NCBI RefSeq assembly: GCF_003337735.1
Contig: NZ_QPJY01000001.1
Location: 82,150-146,149, forward strand
Length of the DNA: 64,000 nucleotides
Direction: 5' to 3'
Origin: Thioalbus denitrificans
GTDB taxonomy: Bacteria > Pseudomonadota > Gammaproteobacteria > DSM-26407
Every line of letters begins with the position of its first letter. Position 1 is the first letter of the stretch. Below, piece by piece: positions 5,258-49,365 of this stretch. Under the pieces are notes generated by a model. That model did no database searches and was not told the origin of the DNA. It worked only from the letters and a program-made list of their open reading frames with translations. A program made the position numbers and the translations under genes.

Positions 5258-5337
5258 GGGGATAAGGGATAAGGGATAAGGGATAAGGGATAAGGGATAA
5301 GGGATAAGGGATAAGGGATAAGGGATAAGGGATAAGG
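5258..5337. repeat. Tandem heptamer array (GGGATAA), about 11 copies
   Basis: 80 bases of near-perfect 7-base tandem repeat in the spacer between two convergent genes, directly after the persulfide dioxygenase stop. The same word appears as a short degenerate run at 15681-15700, and inverted (CCCTTAT) at 49325-49354. Confidence 0.97.
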
Positions 5338-8356: not shown

Positions 8357-8410
8357 CTTGGAGCCGGTCCGGATTGATTCTCCTCATTGACACGGAAGCC
8401 CCTGAACCCA

Positions 8411-9049
8411 ATGCCCCTGAACCCCTTCCGCCAGGCCCGGTTCCTGCTCAGCGCCGCCCAGTTGCGCCAGCTGCCGCCCGACAGCGGCGCCGAGGTGGCC
8501 TTCGCCGGCCGCTCCAACGCCGGCAAGTCGAGCGCGCTGAACGTCATCACCGGCCTCAACAGCCTCGCCCGCATCAGCAAGACCCCGGGCCGGACCCAGC
8601 ACATCAACCTGTTCGAGATCGATGCGGAGCGCCGCCTCGTGGACCTGCCCGGCTACGGCTATGCCAAGGTGCCCGAGGCGATGAAAATCCGCTGGGGCCA
8701 GACCATGGCCCGCTACCTGGAGACCCGGCAGTGCCTGCGGGGGCTGTTCCTGATGATGGACATCCGCCACCCGTTCAAGCCGTTCGACCAGCAGATGCTC
8801 GAATGGTGCCGCGCCCGCGGCATGGCGGTGCATATCCTGCTGACCAAGTCCGACAAGCTGAAGCGCGGTCCCGCGACCACCGCCCTGCAGGCCGTGCGCA
8901 GGACCCTGAAGGCGGAGGCGATGCCGGCCACGGCGCAGCTCTTCTCGGCCCTGAAGCTGACCGGGGTGGAGGAAGCCCGCCTGCAGCTGGCCGAATGGCT
9001 CGGGATCGAACCGGAAGCCGGCCCGCGGGAGAACGCCGGCGGAGCCTGA
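8411..9049 (+). CDS. engB: Ribosome biogenesis GTPase EngB (YihA)
   Basis: Essential GTPase for assembly of the large ribosomal subunit. Motifs: G1 GRSNAGKSSALN (~30), G2 region SKTPGRTQHIN (~53), G3 DLPGYGYAKV (~74), G4 LLTKSDKLKRG (~146), G5 FSALKLTG (~179). The ATG at 8411 (MPLNPFRQARF) fits the family N terminus. A TTG at 8387 in the same frame could start a longer form; neither has a clear ribosome site, so the start is uncertain. It is divergent from the cytochrome operon and convergent with polA and the small RNA candidate. Confidence 0.93.
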   Translation: MPLNPFRQARFLLSAAQLRQLPPDSGAEVAFAGRSNAGKSSALNVITGLNSLARISKTPGRTQHINLFEIDAERRLVDLPGYGYAKVPEAMKIRWGQTMARYLETRQCLRGLFLMMDIRHPFKPFDQQMLEWCRARGMAVHILLTKSDKLKRGPATTALQAVRRTLKAEAMPATAQLFSALKLTGVEEARLQLAEWLGIEPEAGPRENAGGA

Positions 9050-9108: not shown

Positions 9109-9151
9109 AAAAAAAGACCCCGGTGAGGTCTTGGGGGGGAGGTCCGGGGTC
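9109..9151 (-). terminator. Rho-independent terminator of the candidate small RNA
   Basis: Eight-base stem GACCCCGG/CCGGGGTC (9116-9123 and 9144-9151) and seven T on the minus strand (9115-9109). It would also stop read-through from polA before it reaches engB antisense. Confidence 0.8.
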
Positions 9152-9225
9152 AAGGGCAACCCGGCTTAGGGAGGCCGGGTGGGGTTTCCCGCTCAGGGAG
9201 GGAGCAGCGGGAAGCGCGTCACATT
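9109..9225 (-). ncRNA. Candidate small RNA with three C-rich-loop hairpins, at the E. coli spf position
   Basis: The minus strand between polA and engB can fold into three consecutive hairpins. The first, 9213-9186, has stem UUCCCGCU/AGCGGGAA and loop GCUCCCUCCCUG. The second, 9180-9159, has stem ACCCGGC/GCCGGGU and loop CUCCCUAA. The third, 9151-9116, has stem GACCCCGG/CCGGGGUC and a loop with CCUCCCCCCC, and ends in seven U. All three loops expose CUCCC, complementary to Shine-Dalgarno sequences. In E. coli the order polA, spf (Spot 42), with engB convergent, is the same. No sequence kinship with Spot 42 is claimed. The 5' end is a guess; a GACC-TATC-GGTC repeat lies just upstream at 9243-9254. 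No convincing ORF is present. Confidence 0.6.
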
Positions 9226-9363
9226 GCACACACAGTGAGATAGACCGATAGGTCAGTGCAAAAGTTCCTGCACCGGATGAAATTTTTTAACGGGCGATTT
9301 GGTTCTTTTTAATCAGCGGGTTGGCGCGGAGCCGCGGAAAGGGGCGCGAGAGTTACCGATAGC

Positions 9364-9453
9364 GTGTTCCGTGTTCCGTGTTCCGTGTTCCGTGTTCCGT
9401 GTTCCGTGTTCCGTGTTCCGTGTTCCGTGTTCCGTGTTCCGTGTTCCGTGTTC
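9364..9453. repeat. Tandem heptamer array (GTGTTCC), about 13 copies
   Basis: 90 bases of perfect 7-base repeat in the engB/polA convergent spacer. The same word recurs inverted (GGAACAC) at 15845-15886. Confidence 0.97.
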
Positions 9454-9492: not shown

Positions 9493-9560
9493 CATCACTC
9501 ATCACTCATCACTCATCACTCATCACTCATCACTCATCACTCATCACTCATCACTCATCA
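9493..9560. repeat. Tandem heptamer array (CATCACT), almost 10 copies
   Basis: 68 bases of perfect 7-base repeat, 39 bases after the GTGTTCC array. No other copy of this word array was noticed in the window. Confidence 0.97.
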
Positions 9561-9650
9561 CGGTGACGAGGAACTGACAACACCCGTACCTGGCGGAGAC
9601 GCCGCCCCCCTCCCGCAAGGGGAGGGGGAGCAGGCCGTGCGGCCTCTCCA

Positions 9651-9746
9651 CGCACTCACGCACTCACGCACTCACGCACTCACGCATTCACGCATTCACG
9701 CATTCACGCATTCACGCATTCACGCACTCACGCAATCACGCAATCA
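9651..9746. repeat. Tandem octamer array (CGCACTCA / CGCATTCA), 12 copies
   Basis: 96 bases of 8-base repeat with C/T variation at one position. The array runs directly into the polA stop codon, whose TGA is part of the last degenerate unit. The same octamer recurs at 15774-15844. Confidence 0.97.
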
Positions 9747-12455
9747 ATGCGCCTCGTCCCAGTTGGCGCCGATGCCTATCTCCACCAGCAGGGGCACCTC
9801 CAGCTCGGCGGCGCCGGTCATGCACTCACGCACCGCTTCGCCGACGGCGTCGATGTCCCCCTCCCCCACTTCGAAGACGAGCTCGTCGTGCACCTGCATG
9901 ATCATGCGGGCGTCCACGCCGGGGTTCTCCTGCAGCCAGGCATCGCAGCGGATCATGGCGCGCTTGATGATGTCCGCGGCGGTGCCCTGCATGGGGGCGT
10001 TGATGGCGGTGCGCTCGGCCGCCTTGCGCCGCTGCAGGTTGCGGGAGTTCACGTCCGGCACGTAGAGACGGCGCCCGGACAGGGTCTCCACGAAGCCCTG
10101 CTCCCGGGCCGCGGCACGGGTGCGCTCCATGAACTCCAGCACCCCGGGGTAGCGGGCGAAGTACTGGTCCATGTAGGTCTGGGCGGCGGCCCGGTCGATG
10201 CCGAGCTGGCGCGCCAGGCCGAAGGCTGACATGCCGTAGATGAGGCCGAAGTTGATGGCCTTGGCGCTGCGGCGCTGCTCGCCGGTGACCTGGTCGAGCG
10301 GCGTGCCGAAGATCTCCGCGGCGGTGGCCTGGTGCACGTCCAGCCCCTGGCCGAAAGCGTCCAGCAGCCCGGGGTCGCGGGAGAGGTGGGCCATGATGCG
10401 CAGCTCGATCTGGGAGTAGTCCGCCGCCAGCAGCCGGCAGCCCGGCGGCGCCACGAAGGCCTGGCGGATGCGCCGCCCCTCCTCGGTCCGCACGGGGATG
10501 TTCTGCAGGTTGGGATCGGAGCTGGAGAGCCGGCCGGTGGCCGCCACCGCCTGGTGGTAGGAGGTGTGCACCCGGCCGGTGACCGGGTTGACCTGCTCGG
10601 GCAGCCGATCGGTGTAGGTGGAGCGCAGCTTGCTCAGCCCCCGGTGCTCGAGGATGAGCCGGGGCAGGGGGAAGTCGAGCGCCAGGTCCTGCAGCACCGA
10701 CTCGGCGGTGGAGGGCTGGCCCTTGGGGGTCTTGGCCAGCACCGGCAGGCCCAGCTTGCCGAACAGGATCTCCTGGATCTGCTTCGGGGAGCCCAGGTTG
10801 AAGGGCTGGCCGGCGGCGGCGCAGGCGGCCTCCTCGAGCTCGTGGATGCGACGGGCCAGCTGGTGGCTCTGGGACCGGAGCATCTCCACGTCCACCAGCA
10901 CGCCGGTGCGCTCCATGCGCGAGAGCACGGGCACCAGGGGCATCTCCACCTCGTGGAACAGCCGCACCAGCGCCGGCACCTCCTCGAGCCGCGGCCACAG
11001 GTTGCGGTGCAGCTGCAGGGTGACATCGGCATCCTCGGCGGCGTAGGGGCCGGCGGTCTCCAGGGGCACCTGGTCGAAGGTGATCTGCTTCGCCCCCTTG
11101 CCGGCCACGTCCTCGTAGTGGATGGTGCGCCGGCCCAGGTACTTCAGCGCCAGGGTGTCCATGTCGTGGCGGTTCTGGGCGCTGTCGAGCACGTAGCTCT
11201 CCAGCATGGTGTCGCAGGCCACGCCGCGCAGCCGGATGCCGTGGTTGGCCAGCACGCTCATGTCGTACTTGAGGTTGTGGCCGAGCTTGGCCCGCCCGGG
11301 GTCCTCCAGCAGCGGCCGCAGACGCTCCAGCACCGCCTCGCGGTCGAGTTGCGCCGGCGCCCCGGGGTAGGCGTGGGCGAGCGGCACGTAGGCGGCCTCC
11401 CCCGGCTCCACGCTGAAGGAGACCCCGACGATCCGCGCCTCCATGTAGGCGAGGCTGGTGGTCTCGGTGTCGAAGGCGAACAGCTCCGCCGCCTCCAGCC
11501 GCGCCAGCCAGGCCTCCAGCGCCGACTCCTCGAGCACCAGGTCGTAGACGGGCGCCTCCGTCCCCTCCCCGCCGGCGCTCTCCCCGCCCCCGTCCGCCTC
11601 CAGCAGCTCCGCGAGCCAGGACTTGAACTCCATGCGCCGGAACCACTCGATGAGCGTCTCGCGGTCGGGTTCGCCCAGGCGGAGCGCTTCCGGGTCCTCG
11701 GGCAGCTCCAGGTCGACGCGGATGGTGGCGAGCCGGCGGGAGAGGGGCAGCCGCTCCAGGCTCGCGCAGAGGTTCTCGCCGGCCTTGCCCTTGATCTCCG
11801 CGGCGTGCTCGACGATGCCGTCCAGGCTGCCGTACTCGGTGAGCCACTTCACCGCCGTCTTCGGCCCCACCTTGGGCACGCCGGGGATGTTGTCGGAGGT
11901 GTCGCCCACCAGGGCCAGGAAGTCGATGATCCGCTCCGGCGGCACCCCGAACTTCTCCTCCACCCCGGCCCGGTCCAGCACGGTGTTGGACATGGTGTTC
12001 ACCAGGGTGACGTGGTCGTTCACCAGCTGGGCCATGTCCTTGTCGCCGGTGGAGATGACCACCGGCTGCCCCGCGGCCGCGGCCCGGGCGGCGAGGGTGC
12101 CGATGACGTCGTCGGCCTCCACGCCCGGCTCCACCAGCAGCGGCAGCCCCAGCGCCCGCACGATGGCGTGCAGCGGCTCCACCTGGGAGGCCAGTTCATC
12201 GGGCATGGGCGGCCGGTTGGCCTTGTACTCGGCGAACAGCTCGTCGCGGAAGGTCTTGCCCCTGGCGTCGAACACCACCGCCATCCGCTCCGGCGCGTAG
12301 TCGGCCAGCAGCCGGCGCAGCATGTTCACCACCCCGTAGACGGCGCCGGTGGGCTCGCCGCGGGAGTTGGTCAATGCCGGCAGGGCGTGGAACGCGCGGT
12401 AGAGGTAGGAGGATCCGTCCACCAGGACGAGGGGTCTGGTCTTGTTTTCGGTCAT
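9744..12455 (-). CDS. polA: DNA polymerase I
   Basis: Repair and Okazaki-fragment polymerase, 903 residues with all three domains. The 5'-3' nuclease domain occupies residues ~1-290 ([38 protein letters not shown]). The 3'-5' exonuclease domain (~310-500) keeps DTETTS and [10 protein letters not shown], so proofreading looks intact. The polymerase domain has motif [13 protein letters not shown], motif [17 protein letters not shown] and motif [11 protein letters not shown]. The stop codon abuts the octamer array, so the 3' untranslated region is repetitive. It is divergent from the DUF2782 gene. Confidence 0.98.
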
Positions 12456-15770: not shown

Positions 15771-15773
15771 ATG

Positions 15774-15886
15774 CACTCACGCATTCACGCACTCACGCAC
15801 TCACGCACTCACGCACTCACGCATTCACGCATTCACGCACTCACGGAACACGGAACACGGAACACGGAACACGGAACACGGAACAC
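15774..15886. repeat. Octamer array (CACTCACG) followed by heptamer array (GGAACAC)
   Basis: About nine 8-base units (15774-15844) pass directly into six 7-base units (15845-15886). Both words also occur in the engB/polA spacer: the octamer in the same orientation, the heptamer inverted. A lone pair of the 9-base word AATCCTGTC follows at about 15891. Confidence 0.95.
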
Positions 15887-15921
15887 CGAATATCCTGTCA
15901 ATCCTGTCGATTCACATGCAC

Positions 15922-49324: not shown

Positions 49325-49354
49325 CCCTTTATCCCTTATCCCTTATCCCTTATC
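49325..49354. repeat. Short heptamer array (CCCTTAT), about 4 copies
   Basis: Inverted version of the GGGATAA array at 5258-5337. It stands 12 bases before the slyD stop codon. Confidence 0.9.
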
Positions 49355-49365
49355 CAATCCCCACC

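Follow-up and report, generated by a model that had tools for sequence, protein, structure and literature searches.

A C-rich-loop small RNA with a sigma-E-type promoter between polA and engB in Thioalbus denitrificans, and its likely kinship with ErsA, anti-hemB and sX13

In Escherichia coli, the spacer between polA and yihA holds spf, the gene for the small RNA Spot 42. A small RNA gene also lies between convergent polA and engB in the 64-kb window of Thioalbus denitrificans considered here (the window is the whole stretch of DNA that was analysed), which raises the question of what this RNA is and how it relates to Spot 42. A preliminary description, made from the same DNA, had likened the gene order polA, RNA, engB to E. 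coli polA-spf-yihA, and gene calls and the E. coli locus confirm that the two orders are equal. It had given no strand; the RNA is encoded on the minus strand (Table 1). Its span of 9109-9225 keeps its 3′ end; at the 5′ end, the promoter position predicts a start near 9233, ~8 nt upstream of 9225. The RNA ends 59 nt past the engB stop codon on the opposite strand, with zero overlap with engB, and polA is ~500 nt away.

Table 1. Features of the polA-engB region in the window
Feature	Position	Strand	Basis
-35 element GGAACTT of sigma-E/AlgU-type promoter	9262..9268	minus	consensus; unique in window
-10 element GTCTAT, 16 nt after -35 element	9240..9245	minus	consensus
Small RNA gene, ~125 nt	9109..9233	minus	5′ end inferred from promoter; 3′ end from terminator U run
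Hairpin 1: 8-bp stem, 12-nt loop GCUCCCUCCCUG (loop 9205-9194)	9186..9213	minus	fold and covariation
Hairpin 2: 7-bp stem, loop CUCCCUAA (loop 9173-9166)	9159..9180	minus	fold and alignment
Hairpin 3, terminator stem: 8 bp, GACCCCGG/CCGGGGUC	9116..9151	minus	fold and alignment
Terminator U7 run	9109..9115	minus	read from sequence and fold
polA, DNA polymerase I; upstream neighbour, same strand as RNA	9744..12455	minus	Pfam DNA_pol_A 538 bits
engB/yihA/ysxC GTPase; downstream neighbour, convergent	8387..9049	plus	Pfam MMR_HSR1 and closest EngB-scan matches

The minimum free energy fold of the minus strand from 9225 to 9109 consists of three hairpins (-41.9 kcal/mol, z -2.8), each with CUCCC in its loop; the loop of the third, ACCUCCCCCCCAAGACCUCA (20 nt, 9143-9124), contains CCUCCCCCCC. 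Hairpin 1 (CCUCCCUGAG) is the most conserved block of the RNA. Three hairpins within 110 nt, each with a stem of at least 6 and CUCCC in the loop, occur once in the window, at the RNA locus, and 0 times on the plus strand, while first-order Markov shuffles of the window gave a mean of 0.04 such triplets per strand and a maximum of 1 in 100. The succession of three CUCCC-loop hairpins, the last a seven-U terminator, was thus read correctly at the outset; it is borne out by the fold and is rare in shuffles. A plus-strand reading was tried and set aside; it has a stable fold, but its loops are G-rich and it has no U run and no promoter. Reading of the sequence revealed no small ORF of note inside the RNA.

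A test named beforehand for the RNA, that polA-engB spacers of relatives should show compensatory changes in the stems along with fixed C-rich loops, was passed. Because hairpin 1 was misaligned when RNAalifold was run on MAFFT alignments, the analysis used alignments fitted to a covariance model (A3 and A4). In A4, 90.1% of pair cells are standard pairs vs 54.0% at best after sliding by one column, and the covariation score is 0.599 vs 0.186 in shuffles; changes on both sides occur in 23-24 of 25 pairs (A4, A3), including all eight pairs of the hairpin 1 stem, and A3 gives the same picture as A4. Alignments fitted to a model are biased toward paired cells, and members were therefore also folded singly: 96% form at least three hairpins vs 33% of shuffled copies, and 88% have at least two C-rich loops vs 8%. 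Loop 1 contains CUCCC in 63 of 77 members compared to 12.4 expected when letters are shuffled within each loop. The RNA is a real, conserved small-RNA gene.

The distribution of the RNA was followed with a covariance model, R1, built from nine gamma sequences (alignment A2) with no beta sequence in the seed. R1 scores 91.5 bits on the window (9218-9110), which is not an independent score since the window is in the seed; the Rfam anti-hemB model also picks the window RNA. A scan for EngB led to 80 named loci in Chromatiales, Thiotrichales-like and beta genomes; the same RNA design is present downstream of engB, on the strand opposite to engB, in most of them, and R1 matches nearly all 80, beta loci included, at about E 1e-9 to 1e-3. 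In an even sample of 229 genomes from the class Gammaproteobacteria (as defined by GTDB, which counts beta genomes in it), 123 have R1 matches at E<=0.01, 97 of these below 1e-6. In the same genomes the Rfam cut-off is passed by anti-hemB in 11, sX13 in 2, ErsA in 1 and Spot 42 in 0, and ~90 of the 97 genomes with strong R1 matches have no above-cut-off match to any of the four. Outside the class, R1 found no genome better than 5e-5 in a 150-genome sample of the phylum; because such matches reach 5e-5, E-values of 1e-3 to 1e-4 are no proof alone. The best match outside the class (L196) has neither polA nor engB next to it in the fetched flank, and a match within the class (L198) is a lone terminator-like hairpin; both were rejected as being at noise level. 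The L196 element (1497-1616) resembles a C-rich-loop RNA, and several genomes from its family have weak R1 matches. The single genus mate (G001) has no nucleotide match; its assembly is fragmented, and the search for engB found nothing there either.

The neighbours of these matches define the locus more closely. Of the best R1 matches per genome (E<1e-4), 58 are downstream of and antisense to engB within 400 nt; the median gap to the EngB match is ~25 nt, measured from its end, and in some genomes the gap is zero. Most fetched matches away from engB adjoin polA on its downstream side and in the same orientation, and these include the ErsA of G162, which is beside polA alone, and both sX13 loci. 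The RNA seems to stay beside polA or engB, whichever of them a genome keeps, and the window RNA has the three covarying C-rich-loop hairpins beside polA and/or engB by which the R1/R2 family is defined. About fifteen R1 matches have neither gene in the fetched stretch; strong matches of this kind (L131, L133, L134, L135, L136, L140, L149, L154, L155, L162 and L164) are possibly copies that have moved to other neighbours. At further loci the RNA is at its usual place on the other strand (L141, L142, L156 and L159, and the beta loci L034, L040, L062, L065, L071 and L073), an apparent in-place inversion of the gene in several lineages.

The best clue to the function of the RNA is a putative sigma-E-type promoter that the preliminary description missed. 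GGAACTT-N16-GTCTAT is the sole site of such quality on both strands of the window, and no sigma-70 promoter was found near the RNA. The same genome encodes an RpoE equivalog (326 bits, cut-off 236) and Hfq (106 bits), and a similar site, CGAACTC-N16-GTCTAC, occurs upstream of its rpoE. Across the family, promoters were scored as GGAACTT-N15..18-TCT(A/G)A in the 110 nt upstream, with a pass at a score of at least 10 of 12. This was reached by 102 of 153 family members vs 4.8 expected in shuffles, and the -10 element is mostly 18-29 nt ahead of hairpin 1. Approximately one-third of the members have no good sigma-E match. By subset, the promoter was found in 45 of 73 members in class genomes (mostly one per family), in 49 of 57 mostly beta loci (many closely related) and in 7 of 22 named gamma loci (extra tandem copies included).

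An Rfam scan of the whole window found no family at its cut-off. When the threshold is relaxed, anti-hemB (RF02837) comes out best, at 9213-9109 with all three hairpins covered, and its 35.3 bits are below the gathering score of 49.5 bits (E 8.9e-7 over 361 bases; E 2.4e-6 at the same score over the T. denitrificans genome). It is followed by alpha-r14, sX13 (RF02232, 17.5 bits) and ErsA (RF01719, 15.3 bits), all at noise level on the window; the gathering score of both sX13 and ErsA is 50 bits, and the ErsA model has no match in the same genome at E<=0.001. When 20 engB-side loci were scanned with Rfam, the anti-hemB cut-off was passed by nine (beta as far as named; 11 matches), and the gamma loci among the 20 gave no match above any Rfam cut-off. 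The link to anti-hemB (also known as Burkholderia RNA 7) is nevertheless strong in structure and place. Hairpin 1 is nearly identical (CCUCCCUGAGCGGG), the terminator is of the same type, and the anti-hemB RNAs of beta relatives adjoin engB in antisense orientation as the window RNA does (engB end 9049, RNA end 9109). The beta RNAs differ in a second hairpin that has an A/U-rich stem and no C loop, and they have engB as neighbour and no polA in the fetched flank. The link to ErsA (Pseudomon-1) is also strong. ErsA is between polA and engB on the same strand in three loci (L194, L195 and L200), which is the position of the window RNA; it has a C-rich loop in its terminator hairpin and a sigma-E/sigma-22-type promoter (TGAACTT/A-N17-TCAGA or TCATA), a type recognized by consensus only at 9268-9240 in the window; and R1 and R2 match ErsA loci at the bases where the Rfam ErsA model does. 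Unlike the window RNA, ErsA has another sequence in its first hairpin, and the CCUCCCUGAG block is absent. The link to the sX13 RNAs of Xanthomonadaceae is moderate: both they and the window RNA have three C-rich-loop hairpins downstream of polA, whereas the two sX13 loci that were read have no sigma-E-type site and do not adjoin engB.

These likenesses could have arisen by convergence, with several independent C-rich-loop RNAs at polA-engB and the window RNA homologous to the Chromatiales-type and beta RNAs and not to ErsA or sX13. Rfam keeps the families separate, the window is at noise level with the ErsA and sX13 models, the first hairpin of ErsA looks different, and the locus seems prone to acquiring small RNAs. 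Besides Spot 42, it holds the alpha-r7 RNAs of another class, Alphaproteobacteria, which resemble the window RNA by published description only: three stem-loops, C-rich motifs and a position at the polA locus (PMC3771888). Convergence is nevertheless unlikely. The covariance model R2, built from 88 members with ErsA and sX13 left out, matches both sX13 loci (36.4 and 34.6 bits) and all five tested ErsA-type loci (31.6-36.3 bits) at the positions where Rfam places them, four of the five being confirmed by Rfam. These scores of 31-36 bits are near the level of a single C-rich terminator elsewhere (L196, 31.8 bits), and the sX13 and ErsA links therefore rest mainly on locus, architecture, promoter (for ErsA) and bridging sequences. 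Such bridges exist: four tandem copies in one locus (G171:C33) jointly match R1, anti-hemB, ErsA and sX13, and other loci match two or three models (G065:C130, G083:C1, G137:C11, G144 and G156). ErsA and the window RNA also have both neighbours and the promoter type in common. Most likely, then, one old family holds ErsA, anti-hemB and sX13.

The authors of the sX13 study had already pointed to other RNAs at the polA locus (PMC3771888), and our literature search found no paper treating both sX13 and ErsA. The window RNA had been called undescribed, which is right in that most of the family is absent from Rfam and wrong in that RNAs of the same kind at this locus are known as ErsA, sX13 and, on the engB side, anti-hemB. 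It is ordinary in mechanism and a member of a broad, mostly unannotated family that links three known RNAs, most of them under one promoter type; a regulator that is widespread in the class thus goes unannotated. Joining the three families would make results on one, such as the sigma-22 control of ErsA and the loop mutations of sX13, testable in the others. It also predicts that, in beta genomes, anti-hemB serves as an envelope-stress RNA rather than as an antisense RNA of hemB, and the sigma-E-type promoter in most beta loci indicates that the name anti-hemB is probably misleading. Anti-hemB has been seen as a 105-nt RNA in Burkholderia biofilms, and in B. cenocepacia (as ncS04) neither osmotic stress nor low pH nor other conditions changed it (PMC5688073).

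The proposal that the RNA is a functional replacement of Spot 42, that is, a carbon-metabolism RNA that took the spf position in this lineage, does not fit its distribution. The Spot 42 model (RF00021) matches in none of the 229 class genomes, that of T. denitrificans included, with a positive E. coli control, whereas the C-rich RNA is the common occupant, present in about half. Spot 42 seems to be the exception at the polA-engB position because it was found in none of the sampled genomes. Its gathering score of 80 bits is not reached in the window, and it is not listed among the window's Rfam matches even at the relaxed threshold. The two RNAs do share position, orientation with polA and a strong GCCCC...GGGGC terminator, and spf is the top R1 match in 250 kb of E. 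coli (20.7 bits, E 0.0017), which would favour a replacement. However, R2 ranks spf second to an unrelated site, so that the relation of spf to the two models is not separable from noise, the promoter in the window is of the sigma-E type, and replacement is very improbable. The loops of Spot 42 are not C-rich, and the earlier observation that the two RNAs differ in design is upheld by this difference and by the lack of an Rfam Spot 42 match in the window. A tentative alternative history is that one ancestral sigma-E-controlled C-rich RNA at polA-engB, in the last common ancestor of Gammaproteobacteria (beta included), gave rise to ErsA, sX13, anti-hemB and perhaps even Spot 42, and that it was rewired toward E. 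coli from envelope stress to carbon control with its place and terminator kept. Joining the families would make the origin of Spot 42 at its position a testable question.

It might also be supposed that the hairpins are mere stacked terminators of polA (and engB), with no functional RNA between the convergent genes. Hairpin 3 with its U7 run is indeed a good terminator downstream of polA in a region of that kind. Against this, the loop sequences are conserved although termination does not need them, a promoter of defined type is conserved at a fixed distance upstream, and the U run serves the minus strand only, with no terminator-like site found on the plus strand of the region. Moreover, polA is some distance away here, in some genomes the RNA is flipped or apart from polA, and ErsA, sX13 and anti-hemB are expressed RNAs (PMC7565897, PMC3771888, PMC5688073), which leaves the terminator explanation little credibility. 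Least credible of all is a cis-antisense RNA on engB (or on hemB in beta genomes), as the Rfam name implies and as the antisense placement directly downstream of engB, at zero distance from the engB match in some genomes, could suggest, since the window RNA does not overlap engB and other genomes have the RNA beside polA with no engB near.

We therefore consider it likely that the window RNA is a trans-acting envelope-stress RNA of ~125 nt, transcribed from its own sigma-E-type promoter and blocking G-rich ribosome-binding sites with its C-rich loops, and that it belongs to an old polA-engB family across Gammaproteobacteria (GTDB sense, beta included) together with ErsA, anti-hemB and, most likely, sX13. 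Structure, covariation, conserved loops, locus, promoter consensus and the presence of RpoE and Hfq were computed here. From ErsA and sX13 we infer expression under envelope stress, pairing with ribosome-binding sites and repression. ErsA is strictly sigma-22 dependent (PMC7565897) and targets algC, amrZ and oprD (PMC7565897; PMC5819304), and sX13 represses mRNAs through C-rich loops acting on G-rich motifs, as shown by mutation, in an Hfq-independent manner (PMC3771888). By analogy, envelope stress would free RpoE, which, to judge from the promoter consensus and ErsA, would transcribe the RNA from the sigma-E (RpoE/AlgU)-type promoter, and transcription would end at the third hairpin. The CUCCC/CCCC stretches of the loops would then be available for pairing with G-rich (GGAGG/GGGAG) ribosome-binding sites, which may block translation of selected mRNAs, as with sX13 and ErsA. 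That the C-rich loops are likely pairing sites for ribosome-binding sites had been suggested from the start, and loop conservation and the same two analogues support it as likely. Within the few start regions of the window, five matches of at least eight pairs to the loops were found, too weak a signal to single out targets.

At several loci the RNA is repeated in tandem, with as many as four or five copies, as in other multi-copy small RNAs (L146 2551-3290 in G171, L011 4149-5533, L029 3642-4262, L030 3650-3867, L013, L164 and L157). Spacers in the window also contain perfect or near-perfect 7-/8-bp tandem repeats (GGGATAA, CGTGTTC, CATCACT, CACGCACT, GCACTCAC, CACGGAA and TTATCCC), with arrays at 5259-5337, 9363-9453, 9493-9561, 9649-9746, 15773-15890 and 49329-49355. 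Three repeat kinds are present between the RNA and polA, and the pure heptamer arrays are unusually dense.
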